NCBI RefSeq assembly: GCF_000313135.1
Contig: NW_004457578.1
Coordinates: forward strand, 4,274-16,923
Source: Acanthamoeba castellanii str. Neff
Lineage: Eukaryota > Discosea > Longamoebia > Acanthamoebidae
Length of the DNA: 12,650 bases
Direction: 5' to 3'
The position numbers and the translations under genes are program-made. The notes below the pieces were generated by a model, which worked only from the letters and a program-made list of their open reading frames with translations, was not told the DNA's origin and made no database searches. Position 1 is the stretch's first letter; every line of letters starts with the position of its first letter. Positions 2,715 to 12,650 of the stretch are shown here, piece by piece.

Positions 2715-2828
2715 GTGATGAAGACAAGAGCGATCCACCACTCCTCGTCCTCTCTGCTCGTTCTCTGCGCGCACTCACTCTCCACGATCGCCTCGCCCCT
2801 TTCAGCAGTAGTTGAGCTCTTCCCGTAC

Positions 2829-3597
2829 TCGCACGTAGCGGGGTATGCGCTGCACGGGCATGATCTGGTAGTCCTGGAACGACAGCTTGATGCCTCGGGG
2901 TGGTCCCTGCATTTCTGTCGACGCACACGACACACGACACACGACACACGAGGGTGTTGAGTTACGAGACACGAGATTGCGCGTCAGCCGGAAGTGCTGG
3001 GGTATGGGTGCGGCAAAAGAACGGACCTCGACCATCTGCGCAAAGTTGGGCTGCAGGCGCTGAAAGGTGTAGACGGCCTGGGTGTAGTTGTTGATGTACG
3101 TCGTGTACATCCGCAGGAAGGCGACTACCGACACGCCGCACACGCACACGGCACACGATCTACGACACACGCGCAAGTGAGTCCTGTGTCGCGGGTGTCG
3201 TGTTCGTGTGTGCCGTGCCGTGTGTCGTGTGTGTCGTGTAATGTACCAGCGCGAGGAAGACATCGCTGAGACAGGTCTCGAAGGACCAGTCCTTGGTGCG
3301 CTCCTCGAGCTGCATCCAATAGGAGGATGGTCTCGCTGACCCTCAAAATGAGCTCCACGTGGGAGAACAGCTTGGCCTTATCGTCGTTCGTCAGGAACCC
3401 CGCCTGCTGCAGCGGCACCATAAAGCCCTGATTGATTGGTCGATTGATTAGTAATGGTTGCATGCTCACGAGTGAGTGGCAAAATATAATGTGAAAGAAT
3501 ATAAATATAAATATAATATAATAATATAATAATAAAGAGGCCGCACGTCTTCAATCTCTTCGACGTTGCTGGGGAAGACTCCATAGTGGCTGTACAC
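2829..3597 (-). CDS. RhoGEF DH (Dbl-homology) domain exons, incomplete
   Basis: Minus-strand exons: 3597-3547 (17 codons, VYSHYGVFPSNVEEIED), 3427-3247, 3124-3027 and 2906-2829. Together they give the core of a DH domain, the catalytic part of Rho-family guanine nucleotide exchange factors. Recognisable parts are FMVPLQQAGFLT with LFSHVELILRVSE (first helices), FLRMYTTYINNYTQAVYTF (central helix), and FQDYQIMPVQRIPRYVR, the very typical CR3 motif. Missing are the N-terminal E..YV..L motif and the roughly 45 residues after IPRY. The last exon ends at a strong GTACGG donor (2828-2823) with no acceptor exon on this strand until 2274. Part of exon 3427-3247 matches DH better in another frame (see findings). 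Introns here carry ACACG/CGTGT arrays. It is either a rearranged or decaying gene or an assembly problem; the DH identity itself is firm. Confidence 0.75.
2921..3240. repeat. ACACG / CGTGT intronic arrays
   Basis: CGACACACGACACACGACACACGA near 2928-2951, and at 3140-3240 first ACACG-type and then GTGTCGTG-type stretches, in introns of the DH gene. Related CGTGT runs lie at about 1828-1852 and 2535-2582. They are low-complexity and lie in introns, and they occur in both orientations within the locus. Confidence 0.6.
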
Positions 3598-4211: not shown

Positions 4212-7200
4212 ATGGGTAATGCACAGCCCGGGCGAGTTGTGGACCCGCCTCAGCACGGCGGCGACGGAGAGAAGGAGGCAAAGAAAAAGGGGAAGAGGCA
4301 CGGCTCCGGCGCAGTAGCTCACGGGGAGAAGCAGGCGAGCGGCAGCGATGGGGGCGTGCAGCTGCGTCACCCCACCAAGGCGTCCGGCAGGCGTGCGCAG
4401 AAGCTGCAAAAGTACTCCACCCTCACCATGTCCAAGCTCGTCACCTCCTCCTCCGAGGAGGACAACAACGGCACCGCCACGACTGCCACCACCGCCGAAA
4501 CCGCTGCTGCTGCTGCTGCGACCGCCACCGGCCAGACCACAGCCGCCACGACCGCGGACTCCTCGTCGCCGCAGCACCCGTCGCAGGTGCTCTGCCTCGC
4601 CACCTCGAGTGGGCGCGCCTGTGCGTCGGCTTACTAATGCACGAGGTGCGTCTTTATGGGGGACAGGCTGAGGCCGTGGAAGACGAGATGGCGTTGGTCA
4701 AGGGCTTCCTGGCGCAATCGCAGAAGATGGGCGTGACGCCATCGGCGAGCGTTACCAGCCCAGTGGGTGGTGAGGAGGAGCAAGCCAAGGACATGTGCCT
4801 CCTGTGCGAGAGGGAGTTCGTCGTCGCCGGCAAGGTACGCACCATCGCCCTTGGCCCTCTACACATGGCGCAGTTCATTCATCACATGCCGTGCTGTGTC
4901 CCGCGGTAGTCCTTCTACGTGCTGGAGCTGTGCGGGCATGGCTACTGCGTCGAGTGTCTCTATCATCACCTGCAAGCCGAGCTGACCAAGCGGGAAAGCG
5001 AGAGCGGCATAAACGAAGACTCAGTGGCGCGCGAGAACAAGGACGAGAAGGTAGTGACAGTGTGCGTGTCCGTGGCGGGCGATGAGAACAGCGCTCGGGG
5101 AGAGGCCGACGACAAGGGCAAGGAGAAAGAGGCCGACGCAGGCGAGGAGGCAGCGGCGGAGGCCAAAGAGAAGCCGCTCGCGCTGTCCAAGCACCGCGAC
5201 TTCACCTGCCCGCTGGAGAGTTGCAAGTGTGTAGTGTCGGTCGACGACCTCAAGCAAGGTGCCGTCGCCCCGTCCCTCCACGCGCGTATGGCCATGCCGC
5301 TTACGCACGGCTGCAATACCGTCGTATTTGCAGGGCTGGCGGTGTTCGGAAAGCAGGGGCCGTCCTTCGTGTCGGCCCACCCCGGCCACAGCCACCTCAA
5401 GCAGAGTCTCCCCTCCAAGCTTAGTGCATCGCTTCGGTAAGCAGGAGGGTGAGGCCAAGAGGTGGATGTACATATGCGTGCTGTTGCTCACCAGTCCGCC
5501 CGTTCTCTGTGCGGTATGGCAGGGTCTTCATCGAGTCCAATGAAAGCTTCATCATGTGCCCCAAGGAGGAATGCGGGGTGGCGTTCGAGCGCTTGCCGCC
5601 CTCTGAGGTTCCTTCCCGCCCTGCAACTCGCAGCTGCTCTCCTATACTGACGACCGGCCTCACTCATGCATGCAACGCAGGAGGAGAAAAGAGTGCCTGT
5701 CAAGGACGACGAGGGCAAGGCCATCGTGGGACCGGCGCTCGCCCACTACCACGAGTACAGATTCCGGTGCCGCGTATGCGACACCATCTTCTGTTCGGCG
5801 TGCACGACCGCGCCGTACCACGCCGGTAACCCTACCTACCACCCTCTAAGCACACATGCCCCGACTCACTTCGCACGACCGTTGGGGGAGTGCAGGGTAC
5901 ACGTGCCAACAGTATCAAATGTATGGTCGCTACAAGCACTGCATCATCTGTGACATGCCCGTCAAGAAGGACGAGCAGAAGGCGAAAGAAGAAGAAGAAG
6001 AAGCGGGGAGCGATAAAGGCAAGGAGAAGGAGAAGGAGAAGGTGGATCAGGACATACTCGACGATGCCGCCGCCATCTTGAACATCGAGGCGCCGAGCGA
6101 CCTCAGCATTTCGGGGCACATGGCCGCGGAGCTGGCCGATGCGCTGTTATCAGGTGCGGAGGAACCGCCATCCGGTGAAGAAGTCGCTTCGGGGCCCGCG
6201 ACTGTCGAGTCAGCGCCAGACGAGGGCGACCAGCCGGCGAATGTCGAGCAAGAGCAAAAGCGGAAGGAGGAAGAGGCGAAGGCCGATGAACAGGCGTGCG
6301 ACAATGGCGGTGATAAGGAACAGCAGAAGGCCGAAAAAGTGGAAAAGGGAAAGGAGAAAGCAGATGACGACGATGAGGGAGAGGTAGAAAAGAAGCCGGA
6401 GCACGAGGCAGAAGCCGAGGTGGATCCAGCCAAGGAAGCGAGGGACGTCCTGCGTGCAAGCAGCAGCTCGAGCGATGAAAGCGTAGCCTCGGAGATCGGG
6501 GCGGAGGGCCTGCTGGCCGCCTTCTTTCTCCCCGAGGAAGAGAAGGAGGTCAAAGGGAAGAGGGGCAAAAAGGCGCGCAGGCCCCTCAAGCGCTCAAGGT
6601 CCCCCCCTTTCTTTTGAGCTCTCCACACTCTCAGCCCTTTGTCTATGGGCCGTACGCCATTCTGATGTGGTCCACCTCACGCGCAATAACAGCGATTCGG
6701 CAAGTGACGAGAGTAGCGAGATCAGCGAGGTTGAGAGCTGCAGCGAGAGCGAGACCGAAGAGTCGGAGACCGGGAGCGAGACCGAGAGCGCGAGCGACAG
6801 CGATGACGAGCACGTCGTCCAGCCGCCCCCTCACGTAGAAGAAGAGGAACCCGAGGAGCTCAACTACGACGACATACTTGGCGGCGATGACCTGGATCCG
6901 GCCCCCATACAGGCCTTCGCCAAGGACATCCCGAGGGTGCCCGGAGGCATCTTCTTCTGGCGCAAGCGACGCGTACGCAAGGTCCGCGACGAACTGGTGC
7001 TCGAGAAGGAGGCGTGGGACCGACAGGAAATGGAGCGCTTCCTTAAGGAGCAGTACGTGCGCCCTGCCGCTCCCTAAAAGGCGTACGGTCCAGACTAACG
7101 CTGTTGGTTTGTCGCATGCGGGGCGCACGCAGAGATGAGTGCAACCAAAAGAAGGAGATCCTGCGGAAGGAAATAGAGGCGAAGAAGCAAGAACGCGCCG

Positions 7201-9231
7201 AGCTCGAGGTACGCACCTGTCCCCATTGTGTGCTCTGGGGCGCTGCCCTCTCTCGTTTGTCGTGCGCGGGCCGCGTCGCTTATTCGACTTCCCTCCACGA
7301 CTGTGCGGACATTGCACCGAACAGACGGCCATTCTGGAACACGAGTGGTGCGGTGAAGTCGAGTGCCGGAAAGCCATCAAGCGGTACGTACTACATAAGA
7401 CCTCTTGTCTCCCCTCGAACACCCAGTTGACGTGTTCGTTTGTTCGTTGCCCAAAGGCGGTGCTTTAAGCACATGGACTGTAACCACCAGTGCTACGGCC
7501 TGGCCCTGGAGAGGGTACGTACCCCGACTATGCTTTCACTGTGTCGACAACTGTGGACGACACCTCACGCGACCTTGGGTATGGTGTACGTGCTGCTGCT
7601 GCTGCTGCAGGAATGTCTGCACTGTATCCACCCCGACTGCGTGCAAGACGACAAACAGACCAAGGTAAGATGCGGGCTTGGCGGTTCACCCCCAGTGTGG
7701 TGCGGCAGCGGCGCACTGATCCACCCCATTCCTTTCCCCCGCAACTCGCAGGATGATTACTGCAATATATGTTGGGTCGAAGGCTTGGGCGCCAAGCCCT
7801 GCATTTCGCTCACCGGCTGTGGTCACCTGTTCCACTACGACTGCGCCAAGAAGAAGCTGGCACGCCCTCCCTCACCGTCATACACCGCATCGATACACGT
7901 GCTCACTCACCTACACAACAGACCGAGGGCTGGCCCACAGCCGTGATCTCCTTTGCCTTCATGGACTGCCCACTCTGCAACGTCCGCATGGTTCGTCACC
8001 GCATCACGGCCGCGCTTACCCGGAATGATGCAACGATGGAGTTTTTTTGACGTCCTGCGATATTCGTCTGCGCCACACAGGACCATCCCTCGCTCCAAAA
8101 GCAGCTCAAGCCGTTGCTCGAGCTGGAGAAGTACGTCACCAAGGCCGGTGTTGAGCGGATTGCAATCGAAGGTACGGTCACTCGCCGCCTCCATATGCTT
8201 GCTCCGCACCAGAGGCCACAACTCACCGCGGCCGTTTACTTGCGGCCTTCGTCCTCGCTACAGGCATGAAGAAGGACGACGCCCTTGTGAGCCCGCACAG
8301 TCCCTACTTCAACAACCCGGAAAAGTACCTCTCTCTCTCCCACCTCCTCCTCCCGCACGTGTCCGTGAAACTGAGCGCGTGCGGCTGCGGTGGCTCAGGT
8401 TCGCTGCGGACACGTTTGCGTTCTACATGTGCTACCGCTGCCGGTCGCCCTACTTTGGCGGCAAAAAGGAGTGCGCCAACATGGGTGGACCCCCTGGTGC
8501 CGGAGCTCAAGGTACCTCCGCCATCTCATTCCTGCCAGGGGACGTCCACCCCACACTAACCACCACGGCGCGTCTCGCTCAGGAGGAGCTTTCAACCCGA
8601 AGGAACTGGTGTGCGGCGCCTGCAGCAACACGTCCGGACAAACGTGCCTGATCCACGGCGAAGAATACATGGAGGTGGGTCCCACCTCACGCGCTACGCC
8701 TTGCGTGTGCTAAATGCCCAGGCCTACGCGTGATAACATAACATCGCCTCCTCTTCTCTGCTGCAGTGGAAGTGCCGTTTCTGTTGCCGGCTCGCGACGT
8801 ACTTCTGTGCGGGCAAGGCCCGCTTCTGCGACCCCTGCCACGGCGTACCCGGTACCAACACCCCCCGCCCCTCTCGAGAGAATCTCATGGAGCGCGATCC
8901 CTATTGACCCCCGTGCTGCCTCCGCGCGCAGCTGAGCGAGTTGACTTCAACGAATGGAAGACCGTTCCAGAGTACCTTAAGTCCGCGCCCAAGTGCAACG
9001 GTACTCCTCGTCGTACCTTGTGAGTACATTCACTGTGCTTCCGCTCTGCTCATGCCCATTCTCTCTCTTCTTTCTCTCTCTCTCTCTGCGGCGCCAGGGC
9101 CTTCCGACTGTCCGCTGGGAGTGTACCACCCGCCCAACGGCACCGAGGAATTCTGCCTGGGGTGCGTTCTCTGTCGCGCCATCCAGAGCGATAGCCAGTT
9201 CCAATTCAAGGGCCTGGTGAGCAACGCTTGA
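4212..9231 (+). CDS. RING1-IBR / RING-Cys-relay hybrid E3 ubiquitin ligase (MYCBP2-like C-terminus)
   Basis: Exons: 4212-4586, 4667-4834, 4910-5258, 5334-5436, 5523-5607, 5681-5825, 5896-6598, 6693-7052, 7133-7208, 7325-7383, 7457-7514, 7611-7664, 7752-7859, 7922-7990, 8081-8171, 8264-8324, 8399-8511, 8583-8674, 8767-8851, 8932-9000, 9098-9231. All junctions keep frame, giving 1118 residues. Order: low-complexity Lys/Ala/Thr-rich N-terminus (1-125), RING1 (169-288), IBR (344-412), acidic Lys/Glu linker with a basic cluster near 625-642, Ser/Glu tract (643-690), charged helix (about 725-788), Cys/His cluster (797-837), RING-H2 (849-900), tandem-cysteine domain (956-1100). The C-terminal third matches the PHR family (MYCBP2, Highwire, RPM-1), whose RCR module passes ubiquitin between two cysteines and esterifies threonine. 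Animal PHR proteins are several times longer with other N-termini. The start is the first ATG in frame. An alternative is two genes split at the 6599-6692 intron; matching phase and Ser/Glu-rich sequence on both sides argue for one. Substrates are unknown. Confidence 0.85.
4796..5230 (+). other. RING1 domain of the hybrid E3, with a long insertion
   Basis: Residues C169-LL-C172, then C189-G-H191-GY-C194-VE-C197, and after about 83 residues C281-PLES-C286-K-C288. This is the RING1 pattern of RBR ligases, including the CGHxYCxxC core and a final CPxxxC. In known RBRs RING1 binds the charged E2. The insertion between the two halves is Glu/Lys/Ala-rich and probably disordered. An intron (4835-4909) lies between the first and second metal pairs. 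Confidence 0.85.
5557..5906 (+). other. IBR (in-between-RING) domain of the hybrid E3
   Basis: Ligands C344-x4-C349, then C390-x2-C393-x4-C398-x2-C401-x5-H407-x4-C412 fit the IBR zinc pattern exactly. The approach [16 protein letters not shown] resembles the 'ESNPxxxxCPxxxC' entry of known IBRs. Two introns (5608-5680 and 5826-5895) interrupt it. A lone C424-II-C427 follows, but there is no RING2. Confidence 0.87.
7349..7640 (+). other. Cys/His-rich segment just before the PHR-type RING
   Basis: Residues C797, C802, C810, C816, H818, C820, C829, C832 and C837 lie in MDCNHQCYG and [10 protein letters not shown] contexts across three small exons. Spacing suggests one or two zinc sites. From memory, PHR proteins have a comparable GHxC...CLxC stretch immediately before their RING. 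The exact fold is not known to me. Confidence 0.6.
7761..7978 (+). other. RING-H2 domain of the RCR module
   Basis: Ligands C849-x2-C852, C868-G-H870, H873-x2-C876 and C897-x2-C900. The context [18 protein letters not shown] and FMDCPLCN matches the MYCBP2 RING (CMICFTEAL...CSHIFHxxC...CPIC, from memory). It would bind E2~ubiquitin. The intron inside it (7860-7921) uses a GC donor. Confidence 0.88.
8400..9174 (+). other. Tandem-cysteine (TC) domain with relay cysteines
   Basis: Begins [20 protein letters not shown] and runs to GCVLC (C1097, C1100). Aligning by eye to human MYCBP2 from memory, C980 matches the upstream relay cysteine C4520, E1000 matches E4534, C1037 matches the esterifying C4572, F1043 matches F4578 and H1048 matches H4583. 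The residue after C1037 is Ala where human has Phe (4573). Other cysteines (C966, C969, C1003, C1006, C1014, C1026, C1029, C1030, C1044, C1047, C1073, C1079, C1094, C1097, C1100) are likely zinc ligands. The 8852 donor is a choice; the alternative 8845 donor with an 8936 acceptor also keeps frame. Confidence 0.85.
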
Positions 9232-9380: not shown

Positions 9381-10176
9381 TCAGTTCAGTTGAGTTGTGA
9401 GCTGGAGGGCTTCAGTGGAACTGCGTCCTCCGTCTCCGTTTTGCCCCTCGGCCGAGTGGTCATCGTCCTCCTCTTCGAACGGCGGCGGCTCCACGTCGCA
9501 GTCGCATATCTCGATCCCGTTGCCGTCCGGATCGAAGAAGAACAGCTGCCGCTGGCCCGTCTGAGGCACCACGCTCTCCGCAAACATGATTCCGTACTCC
9601 TTCAGCAGTTCCATGGTCAGCCCCAAGTCTTCCGTCCTGAACGCCATGTGGTGACCTACTGTGGTGCAAGACCGTGGTGAGCGTCATGCGTCGTGGCTGT
9701 GCAGAGAGCAAAAAACAGAAAAGAAAAGAAAAGACAAAGGCAAACACAAATCTGTAGATGAAGGTACCGCGCTTGAGAGAGGCAGGGTTTTTGGCGACCT
9801 CTTGCCAGTTGCCCATCTTCTTGACGGCAGCGCACGGGCCTTCAGGAAGGTCGACGCTGGGATCTTTCTCGATGATGTGGAGCGAGGTGCTGGGGGGCAT
9901 GAAGAGCCACGCGCCTGCGAAGGGGAACGGTGGTCGCTTGATTCTTCGGAAGCCCATGACTTTGGTGTAGAACCGAATCATCTCGTCCACATTCTCGGTC
10001 TCCTTCGATAGATGATTGAACGAATGGATGGGCAGGCCGGGGCGCTTGGTGTTGGCAGGCTGTGTATGGCTGTCAGTAGCCCTTCCCACAACAGCCTCGC
10101 TGTGCTTGTCCTTGTCGTTGCCATTGTGGTCGAGCGCGACTGTGGCCACGAGGGTGGACACCAGAGTCGACGCCAT
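9381..10176 (-). CDS. VOC-superfamily (glyoxalase I-like) protein
   Basis: Two minus-strand exons, 10176-9768 and 9655-9381, joined through a GTACCT...CAG-TAG intron in phase 1, give 227 residues. The fold is two VOC half-repeats: SFNHLSKETENVDEMIRFY with GFRRIKRP and GAWLFMP (residues 52-93), then GHHMAFRTEDL, a helix, and QLFFFDPDGNGIEICDCD (172-190). H55, H139 and E185 sit where vicinal-oxygen-chelate enzymes hold metal. The pattern, especially FFxDPDGxxIEICxCD, resembles plant and fungal glyoxalase-like proteins of unclear substrate, so I would not assign methylglyoxal activity with confidence. Residues 1-47 form a polar extension that could be a weak targeting or linker segment, and the tail after 190 is acidic and low-complexity. 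The start is the only sensible ATG upstream of the domain. It is convergent with the E3 gene and divergent from glucosidase II beta. Confidence 0.88.
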
Positions 10177-10643
10177 GGTCTCGTGGTGGGTGATGGAGGG
10201 TGGAAGGGTCTATGTGAATGCAGCCGCGCGCAAGGCCTCCGTGTTTGTGCTTGTGTAGCATCAGCAACAAGGAGGCAGGGACTCACGCCCGGACACACGA
10301 AGACACCCGGTTGTGTGACCGTTCTGCGCAAGCGGCTGGAGCCTTCCGCGGATGTGCTGCATTCCACATTCTTTTCGCTCAAAACGCGCTGCCAATGTGC
10401 AACTCTCTGCATCTCGTCGCTGGTGTGTTCACCGGGGCCGCACGCACAACGTTGCAGCCAGGCTGGTAGAGGTTGTCGTGACCAGCACAAACCTGATGCC
10501 CAGCAGGGTGTGTTGGATTGGGTACGCCCAACAGTAACGCCAGTACGGGCGAGCGAAAAAAAAACGAAAAAACGAAAAAAACAAAAAAAAACTGTGACGT
10601 AGCACAAGCGACCAAACAAAAAGCCACCCAGCACGCCAACGAG
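10177..10643. promoter_or_regulatory. Divergent promoter region between the VOC and glucosidase II beta genes
   Basis: 467 bp with no credible coding on either strand. Close to the plus-strand gene lies an A-rich tract (about 10554-10591, runs of A broken by CG or C) followed by TGACGTA at 10595-10601, a CRE/ATF-like half site about 45 bp before the ATG. It presumably drives both genes; the element roles are inference. Confidence 0.5.
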
Positions 10644-12650
10644 ATGGGACGCTTGGCATTTCTCTCACTCTGCTGCCTTTTTGTGGCGTCGATTAGCCTT
10701 GCCCAGGCAGTTGATCTCCGCGGTGTCCATCCCTCCGGTACGTCTTCTCAAAAGAGTGGAGAATATGGTGGGGGCTACTCCTGTCTGCAAACGTGCTGCC
10801 CTCGTAAATTCAATACATTCCGCACTAATTTGATGTGTGGCTCTTGTGATGATGGGCGCAGATGCGGCGCGGTACAGCGGCAAGACGTTTGAGTGCAAGG
10901 ACGGCTCGAAGACCGGCCTCCCGCTGTCCAAGGTAAACGACGACTACTGCGACTGCGCGGACGGCAGCGACGAGCCCGGCACCAGTGCCTGCGACAACGG
11001 ACGCTTCTTCTGCCCCAACCGCGGTCACCTCGGCCTCACGCTCTTCTCCTCCCGCGTCAACGATGGCATCTGCGGTACGTACGAGAACTGCGCGTCTAGA
11101 CTCTGCTCTGGCCGTTCTCGCGACTGAGACTCACCTTCATCATGTGCTGGTCGCGTCGTCCACCGGTGCTGCACACAGATTGTTGCGATGGAAGCGACGA
11201 GTACGACGGCAAGGTGAAGTGCCCGGACACCTGCTACGCGCTCGGCGAGGACACCCGGAACGCCAAGAGGCTGGAGATCGAGGCCTTCAAGAAGGTTTGG
11301 AGCGAACCCTCATGTCCCTCCTCCTATTGTACCCGAGTCGCTCACCTCTGTTGACACACACACAATTGCACACGCGCGCAGGGTTTGGGGATCAGGCGCG
11401 ACTACGAGGCTGAGGCCAAGAGCGTGCGCGAGGAGAAGCAGGAGAAGGTCGAAGAGCTCAAGGCCGCCCTTGCCCAGAAGCAGCAGAACGAGAAGGACCT
11501 CCAAGGTCGGCTGGCTAATGCCCCATTATCCATCCCCCCCCCTCCCGATTGCCTCTCTCCACGTAGTGCTGCCTGACTGACTGACGCTCGTGTGTGCCGC
11601 GTGGTGCGTGGTGCGTGGTGAATCGGATCTACAGCCCAAGTCGACGCGCTCGAGGCCAAGGCCAAGGCTGCCGAAGAGCTGCTGGCCCAGTACAAGCCCA
11701 AGGAGACCCTCCCGGGCCAGGAGCAGGCCGAGGACCAGTCCGCCGGCGAAGAGGACGATGAGGAGGGCCTTGACGATGACGACGACGAGGAAGAGGAGGA
11801 CGGTGAGGAGGACGAGGAGGACGAAGCCGCGGCCGCTGAGAAGAAGGAGGCCCAAGAGGAGGTCAAGGTTCTCCTGGAGAGGACCGACGACGTCAAGGAG
11901 GCTCTCGAGCAGGCCGAGAAGGACATCGCCGGTACACACCGTCACTCCTTCACGTCCCTCTTTCTGTTTCTCTCTTTCTCTCTTTCGCTCTCTGGCGCGT
12001 GTGGCGTGTGTGGCGTGTGTGCGTGTGTGCGTGCAATCACCCGAAAACGACGTCATTCATGGTTAAATTTCGTACGATAGAGTACAAGGCCTCCAAAGCT
12101 AGAGGCCGAGAGGAGAGGGAGGTGGGGGCCGAGGAGGGCGTTCTGGCGAGCCTGTGGCGATTCCTCGTCGGCTTTGCTCCCTCCTCCCTCTCCTCCACCT
12201 CCTTGCCTCTCTCCGGAGAGGCGAAGATGTCAGGTGATCATCACATGCGCATACACACGCACCCGCCGCCAGCTCCTCTTCTATGTCGCGTCGCTTTCGT
12301 GCCTCTCGTTTCCAACCTTCGGCGTTTGAGTGACCACACTCACACAGCGGTTCTCACCGTGCGGTGGTGCTTGTCGACAGACTTGGAGGAGCTGCGGGAC
12401 AGGCTGAGAAGCGTCCGGCGCGAGGTCGAGAACACGGCCACGGAGATCTCCAACCTCGAGGACTACTTCAAGCTCGACATGGGTACGACATACGGGCTTC
12501 CATCCGCCCACCCGTCTTCTTCCCCCTACTCCCCGCCCATATGGGCACACATTGACGCGGCCCCGATCAGGTGAGGACGCGTTCTATGGCATTCGCGATA
12601 AGACCTTCGAACTGAAGACCAACGAGTACACCTACAAGCTGACCCCCTTC
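10644..12650 (+). CDS. Glucosidase II beta subunit (PRKCSH-like), truncated by the right edge
   Basis: Exons 10644-10737, 10862-11074, 11179-11294, 11382-11505, 11635-11931, 12381-12482 and 12571-12650 keep frame, giving 342 residues here. A signal peptide ([20 protein letters not shown], cleavage near residue 22) sends it to the ER. Two LDLR class-A-like repeats follow: [17 protein letters not shown] (residues 56-72) and VNDGIC with [11 protein letters not shown] (97-113), the calcium-binding N-terminal domain that holds the catalytic alpha subunit. Then come a coiled coil (about 142-215), an Asp/Glu-rich stretch (about 220-260), a second helix (265-310), and the start of the MRH domain ([11 protein letters not shown]). 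In known systems GII removes glucose residues from N-glycans, and the MRH domain binds mannose to raise activity. The expected C-terminal ER retention signal lies outside. Intron 5 (11932-12380) is unusually long at 449 nt. Confidence 0.93.
11932..12380 (+). other. Long intron 5 of the glucosidase II beta gene
   Basis: GTACAC donor and GTCGACAG acceptor; the flanking exons join in phase 1 to give an uninterrupted helix. The intron starts with a pyrimidine-rich stretch (about 11940-11995), then a GTGTGGC repeat (12000-12031), then a GC-rich part with the small inverted repeat GGCCTC...GAGGCC near 12089-12108. A frame across 12059-12235 is open but shows no family match, so I treat it as intronic. 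Confidence 0.6.

Follow-up and report, generated by a model that had tools for sequence, protein, structure and literature searches.

A predicted Acanthamoeba castellanii ubiquitin ligase joining RING1-IBR to a RING-Cys-relay module, and its relatives in distant microbial eukaryotes

INTRODUCTION

The RING-Cys-relay (RCR) class of ubiquitin ligases (E3s) was described from MYCBP2 and, in the available part of a catalogue of human E3s, is placed with the atypical E3s (PMC13061254). The available part of another report gives MYCBP2-type RCR enzymes a Cys-His-Glu triad at the second site and describes the reported RCR enzyme as selective for Thr and Ser (PMC9527308). CUL9 is presented, in the accessible portion of a third paper, as a chimeric cullin-RING/RBR E3 (PMC11257990). 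The present work concerns a gene of Acanthamoeba castellanii str. Neff that lies in a window of 12 650 nucleotides (nt), i.e. the whole stretch of DNA that was analysed (contig NW_004457578.1, positions 4274 to 16 923 of the forward strand); positions below are those of the window. An earlier note, made from the sequence alone, had read 4212–9231 as one gene for an E3 with an RBR-type RING1 and an IBR in the N-terminal half and a PHR-style RING and tandem-cysteine (TC) domain in the C-terminal half. It had further proposed that the RCR module replaces the RING2 of RBR ligases, that one chain may have two E2-docking RINGs and that the protein could be an ancestral form of the PHR family.

RESULTS

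Gene structure

The coding gene (4212..9231, on the forward strand, as are all features of the ligase given below) was modelled by splice-site reading as 21 exons, with 1118 codons plus a stop and 20 introns of 62–116 nt. Nineteen of the 20 introns have GT-AG borders and one, within the RING-H2 domain (7860..7921), has GC-AG borders. An independent, uninterrupted database protein of 1116 amino acids, P0001, derives from a contig of 3543 nt, which is shorter than the genomic span of 5020 nt, so that P0001 must be a spliced product. It differs from the window protein only in exon 1, where it lacks two alanines and has P for S at one site, and its letter-for-letter agreement beyond these differences supports all 20 junctions, the GC-AG join included. 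The stretch 4212–9231 is one spliced gene encoding a single protein, as the earlier note had held from the consistency of the splicing. No break between two genes, which had been named there as a possibility, was found at 6599..6692; this region is intron 7, a GT-AG intron of 94 nt, and P0001 is continuous across its join. A search of the assembly itself with an RCR fragment, made as a check for paralogues, gave at least five exon matches (match counts from this search being lower bounds), every one of which lay inside the window gene.

RCR module

The C-terminal half matched the full RCR module of MYCBP2 (5o6c) with an E value of 2.4e-59. It consists of a RING-H2 domain (residues 846–907, 7752..8089; 103 bits), which aligned to that of MYCBP2, and a TC domain (residues 958–1102, 8406..9180; 153 bits), which matched 5o6c. 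With the MYCBP2 triad numbered as we take it to be, the family alignment placed relay cysteine 1 at C980 (8472..8474; MYCBP2 C4520), the catalytic Glu at E1000 (8603..8605; E4534), relay cysteine 2 at C1037 (8806..8808; C4572) and the catalytic His at H1048 (8839..8841; H4583). Both relay cysteines are therefore present, as are, at the sequence level, the triad residues C1037, H1048 and E1000, and the earlier assignment of a PHR-style RING and TC domain to this half was confirmed. Relay cysteine 1 was conserved in all 88 homologues that combine an IBR with the RCR module (RBR-RCR proteins) and in 68 of the 69 homologues with no IBR match, the other row having a gap. Relay cysteine 2 (one gap, in a truncated row) and the His (one gap) were each found in 87 of 88 RBR-RCR proteins and in 69 of 69 without an IBR. 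The Glu was invariant in the latter 69, whereas the RBR-RCR proteins had E (36), D (46), H (5) or A (1) at this position, 82 of the 88 thus having an acidic residue.

A1038 (8809..8811) aligned with MYCBP2 F4573, presumably part of the Thr pocket. This position was F in 69 of 69 proteins without an IBR, compared with W in 73, F in seven, G in five, A in one, N in one and a gap in one of the 88 RBR-RCR proteins, and this family-level difference in sequence could change the acceptor. At the position of human F4586 the window protein has P, and 26 of 41 RBR-RCR rows have Q or A; three of the four PHR-type rows compared varied here as well.

RING1 and IBR

Family profiles built without the window sequence gave 41 bits for an RBR-type RING1 (residues 169–299, 4796..5338) and 84 bits for an IBR domain (residues 341–415, 5548..5915). 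The predicted folds of RING1-IBR matched RBR ligases, RNF144A and HOIL-1 in the case of RING1, and with the profile scores they uphold the earlier reading of the N-terminal half. The RING1 profile scored at most 23.5 bits on RING-H2 domains, against 41 bits on the window RING1, and matched the RING1s of HOIL-1 (1.2e-9), HOIP and RNF144A, whereas other RINGs matched more weakly. The window RING1 is split into halves at 4796–4957 and 5201–5236, and 83 residues separate C197 from C281, compared with 24 in the equivalent gap of the relative P0012; its zinc ligands are retained. Those of the IBR were invariant across alignment A3 (34 rows), and the Pfam cut-off for IBR was passed by 10 of the 18 RBR-RCR relatives scanned.

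With 25 bits or more taken as the specific level, RING1 was detected in 45 of the 89 IBR carriers and was below this level or unseen in 44, which include at least four fragments (P0029, P0030, P0036 and P0040) and many near-copies. The profile gave no match at all in P0019, P0024, P0025 and P0042. Since a specific score was reached in 45 of 89, E2 docking by RING1 need not be a fixed trait of the family, and RING1 may not serve as an E2 dock across the whole of it; the proposal of two E2-docking RINGs is to that extent weaker than had been claimed.

Zinc module, insert and RING2

A zinc module (CxxC ... CxxxxC ... CGHxCxG ... CLPCL) sits between the IBR and RING-H2. Its first cysteine pair, CIIC (C424 and C427, 5940..5951), identified from alignments and a motif pattern, stands just past the IBR; alignments A2 (25 rows) and A3 show it without variation, and the pattern was present in 87 of 90 proteins. 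The second part (C797–C837, 7349..7640; 34 bits by profile), with CNHQC and CLHC motifs, is common to PHR proteins. The module of the window protein is split by an insert of 369 residues (median gap 18), made up of an acidic low-complexity linker (residues 436–730, 5976..6954; net charge −55) with a predicted local distance difference test (pLDDT) score below 50 over most of its length, and a long predicted helix (residues 728–793, 6946..7339; 728–791 in the AlphaFold2 model of P0001). By profile, the module was detected in 88 of 89 IBR carriers and in 68 of 69 proteins without an IBR, and hhalign of the two groups gave 99.5 % with an E value of 4e-23, the rows without an IBR having been preselected by a regular expression on two zinc-module motifs.

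The spacing motif that we take to describe RING2 (Rcat) was found after the IBR in none of 90 proteins, compared with three of three typed controls, although a very diverged RING2 could escape it. In the fold lists, most of the alignments to RBRs ended near the end of the IBR. The absence of a recognisable RING2 agrees with the suggestion that the RCR module stands in its place, but a simple replacement does not hold, because the zinc module intervenes and is also present in proteins without an IBR. Two other assignments were rejected: that the zinc module itself is a RING2, given the absence of the Rcat motif and the presence of the module in PHR proteins, and that the PHR B-box region is homologous to IBR, for which hhalign gave an unsupported 33.7 %.

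Distribution of the architecture

The homologue set comprised 158 distinct proteins, P0001 included, among the matches listed in protein searches, the largest of which contributed its best 120 of 168. An IBR was found in 89 of these and no IBR match in 69; the latter were labelled PHR-type as a group and not on the basis of PHR domains in each. IBR, RING-H2 and TC occurred together in 88 of 158, so that the order of RING1/IBR followed by RCR, which the earlier note had wished to see in related genomes, does recur. All of IBR, zinc module, RING-H2 and TC were present in 87 of the 89 carriers, the exceptions being P0153, with no zinc-module match, and P0044, which ends before the RCR module. The domain order of P0002, P0003 and P0004 was the same as that of the window protein. 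The 89 carriers do not amount to 89 lineages, because a large number of them are near-copies similar to the Tetrahymena row. Those with names were from Plasmodiophora brassicae, Spongospora subterranea, Cercozoa sp. M6MM, Neobodo, Tetrahymena utriculariae, Anaeramoeba flamelloides (Metamonada), Cymbomonas and Closterium, whilst most of the named rows without an IBR were from animals and the rest from Thecamonas and Palpitomonas. MYCBP2 is the name that a source gives to five of the IBR carriers (P0036, P0038, P0043, P0103 and P0119). The design is thus common to dozens of proteins of distant microbial eukaryotes and therefore looks like an overlooked branch of relay ligases.

Many of the RBR-RCR relatives are compact, at about 550–770 amino acids. 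In precomputed Pfam columns, companion domains among the 89 were C2 (nine), ubiquitin-like (four), PX (one) and PH (one), a hint of membrane work in some relatives. P0019, P0024, P0105 and P0141 carry ubiquitin-like and C2 domains with no RING1 match before IBR-RCR, and two of them are named rhizarians (Cercozoa sp. and Plasmodiophora). An N-terminal C2HC finger, UBZ-like by a pattern that we assume for it, was seen in six of 89 (P0031, P0032, P0034, P0035, P0038 and P0044), with a Pfam zf-C2HC_2 match below the cut-off in P0034. The N-termini of P0002, P0003 and P0004 show MGNxxS, which we take to be a myristoylation-like motif. N-myristoylation was rejected for the window protein and P0001, which start with MGNAQP, because the Pro breaks the motif. 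A viral origin was likewise rejected, as a scan of viral contigs, in which 259 stretches were matched by pattern, revealed no relative among them.

Phylogeny

In a quick tree of 73 rows (from 82 picked out of 159) the two architectures were split by one branch (support 50), so that one change of architecture was needed. A careful tree of 57 rows (from 59 picked) needed two changes, and one sufficed in just 4 % of 200 bootstrap trees. In the careful tree all 15 PHR-type rows formed one clan with the IBR-bearing P0125 (98/98), and the window protein grouped with P0002, P0003 and P0004 (100/100) among the RBR-RCR proteins. Both trees are unrooted and therefore give no direction of change.

Neighbouring sequence

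Upstream of the ligase gene and on the opposite strand, 2802–3377 (−) contains a piece of a RhoGEF domain (Pfam, 34.5 bits; cut-off 27.6), and short-repeat runs of the CGTGT/ACACG type were seen by eye upstream at about 1820–1850, 2925–2952 and 3160–3240. Downstream, 9460–10209 (−) gave a weak glyoxalase/VOC match of 19.3 bits, just under the Pfam cut-off of 20.6, again on the opposite strand, and 10834–11127 (+) contains an exon like the Glucosidase II beta subunit (PRKCSH; 85 bits).

DISCUSSION

Taken as a whole, the window protein is probably a single-chain hybrid E3 in which an RCR relay is joined to a RING1-IBR that acts as a ubiquitin- or E2~Ub-binding regulatory arm; that the RCR module performs the chemistry is very probable. 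By comparison with MYCBP2, RING-H2 (846–907) would dock E2~ubiquitin, from which ubiquitin would pass to C980 in the TC domain and then to C1037; the latter, with E1000 and H1048, would transfer it to a hydroxyl group or, conceivably, to an acceptor of another kind. Esterification of hydroxyl groups by the window protein is thus suggested by analogy. RING1-IBR, which would be unable to complete an RBR cycle because there is no RING2, may instead activate, orient or prime the relay, and the split zinc module (C424/C427 together with C797 onward) may keep this arm beside the relay despite the insert.

Several results weigh against this interpretation. The N-terminal half of the window protein alone, when compared with PDB, returned no RBR, the best match being an unrelated enzyme (E 0.036), and the window protein was not listed by the Pfam IBR model at E ≤ 1; the RING1 and IBR assignments therefore depend on the family profiles. 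As regards the hydroxyl acceptor, the residue presumed to belong to the Thr pocket, F4573, is Ala in the window protein.

The same evidence bears on other explanations. That the locus holds two neighbouring genes, or a chimera of assembly or annotation, is scarcely conceivable: low-complexity sequence (5976–6954) does lie between the conserved halves, but P0001 runs continuously across it and the same order of domains recurs in P0002, P0003 and P0004 and, from IBR to TC, in nearly all of the IBR carriers. It is rather unlikely that the relay is used with lysine or a non-protein acceptor in place of Thr/Ser. The replacement of the uniform F at position 4573 of proteins without an IBR by W, G, A or N in most RBR-RCR proteins speaks for such a change, as does the substitution at F4586, although the latter position varies in PHR-type rows too; the Cys-Glu/Asp-His set is retained, however, and selectivity for Thr/Ser is what has been reported for the RCR enzyme (PMC9527308).

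Two further explanations concern RING1-IBR. It might dock its own E2~Ub and feed the relay cysteines or build chains, so that two E2s would serve one chain. The window RING1, which keeps its zinc ligands and matches the RING1s of RBR ligases both in the family profile and in its fold, would suit this role, and the zinc module would keep both halves near each other, but the weak or unseen RING1 of 44 carriers (fragments and near-copies among them) and its absence from the matches in four proteins, which suggests that RING1 may be dispensable family-wide, make this explanation unlikely. Alternatively, RING1-IBR might bind neither ubiquitin nor E2 and be a mere scaffold or an arm for substrate or localization, in keeping with the variable N-terminal companion domains and the undetected RING1 of several lineages. 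We consider this quite improbable, as A3 shows no variation in the zinc ligands of the IBR and the order of IBR, CxxC and zinc module is preserved over great distances. A regulatory arm that binds ubiquitin or E2~Ub is preferred.

As to evolution, the taxon spread and P0125 lean weakly towards derivation of PHR from RBR-RCR proteins; an ancestral form of PHR is in this sense suggested, whilst the unrooted tree leaves its direction unsaid. We regard it as possible, and put it forward tentatively, that RBR-RCR proteins are a separate and very old class of E3 that predates the split of the main eukaryotic groups and couples a ubiquitin-sensing RING1-IBR to a Cys relay. Animal MYCBP2/PHR would then be the derived form, from which RING1-IBR has disappeared and to which a B-box-like finger and DOC have been added. 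Most members of the class, whose pocket is altered, may ubiquitylate hydroxyl groups (or different acceptors) and may do so partly at membranes.

Full-text searches gave, among the matches listed and judged from titles and the starts of abstracts, no paper describing RING1-IBR fused to RCR, the founding RCR papers lying outside the searches. The parts are known, and their combination and its breadth seem not to be described in the literature covered; the founding papers could hold a remark on evolution. The occurrence of IBR in 88 of 158 RCR homologues, from several distant protist and algal groups, would make a family of what had been a peculiarity of a single enzyme and would hint at how relay and RBR parts came to be neighbours. 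Compact relatives in tractable organisms such as Tetrahymena would offer a route to the study of non-lysine ubiquitylation, and it would become testable whether RING1-IBR can regulate a catalytic unit other than RING2.

With MYCBP2 and other PHR proteins (Highwire, RPM-1) the window protein shares the CxxC/CGHxCxG zinc module, RING-H2 and a TC domain in which the two relay cysteines, the Glu and the His are all present. It differs from them in having RING1-IBR, no match to which was found in the named animal rows of MYCBP2/RCR type (e.g. P0049 and P0053), in its length of 1118 amino acids and in the A that replaces F at 4573. Nor were the APC10-like (DOC) and B-box domains of PHR proper found in it by a Pfam scan, in which P0017 and P0020 were above the APC10 cut-off and P0017 had a B-box match below the cut-off. 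It resembles the RBR E3s (HOIL-1, HOIP, RNF144A, ARIH1/2 and parkin) in its RING1, by family profile, in its IBR, by Pfam in relatives, and in both by predicted fold, but past the IBR it has the RCR catalytic unit in place of a recognisable RING2 motif. As in CUL9, to judge from the available part of its description, two catalytic types of E3 are combined in one assembly; in CUL9 these are RBR and cullin-RING with RBX1, whereas the window protein unites a RING1-IBR without RING2 with a Cys relay.
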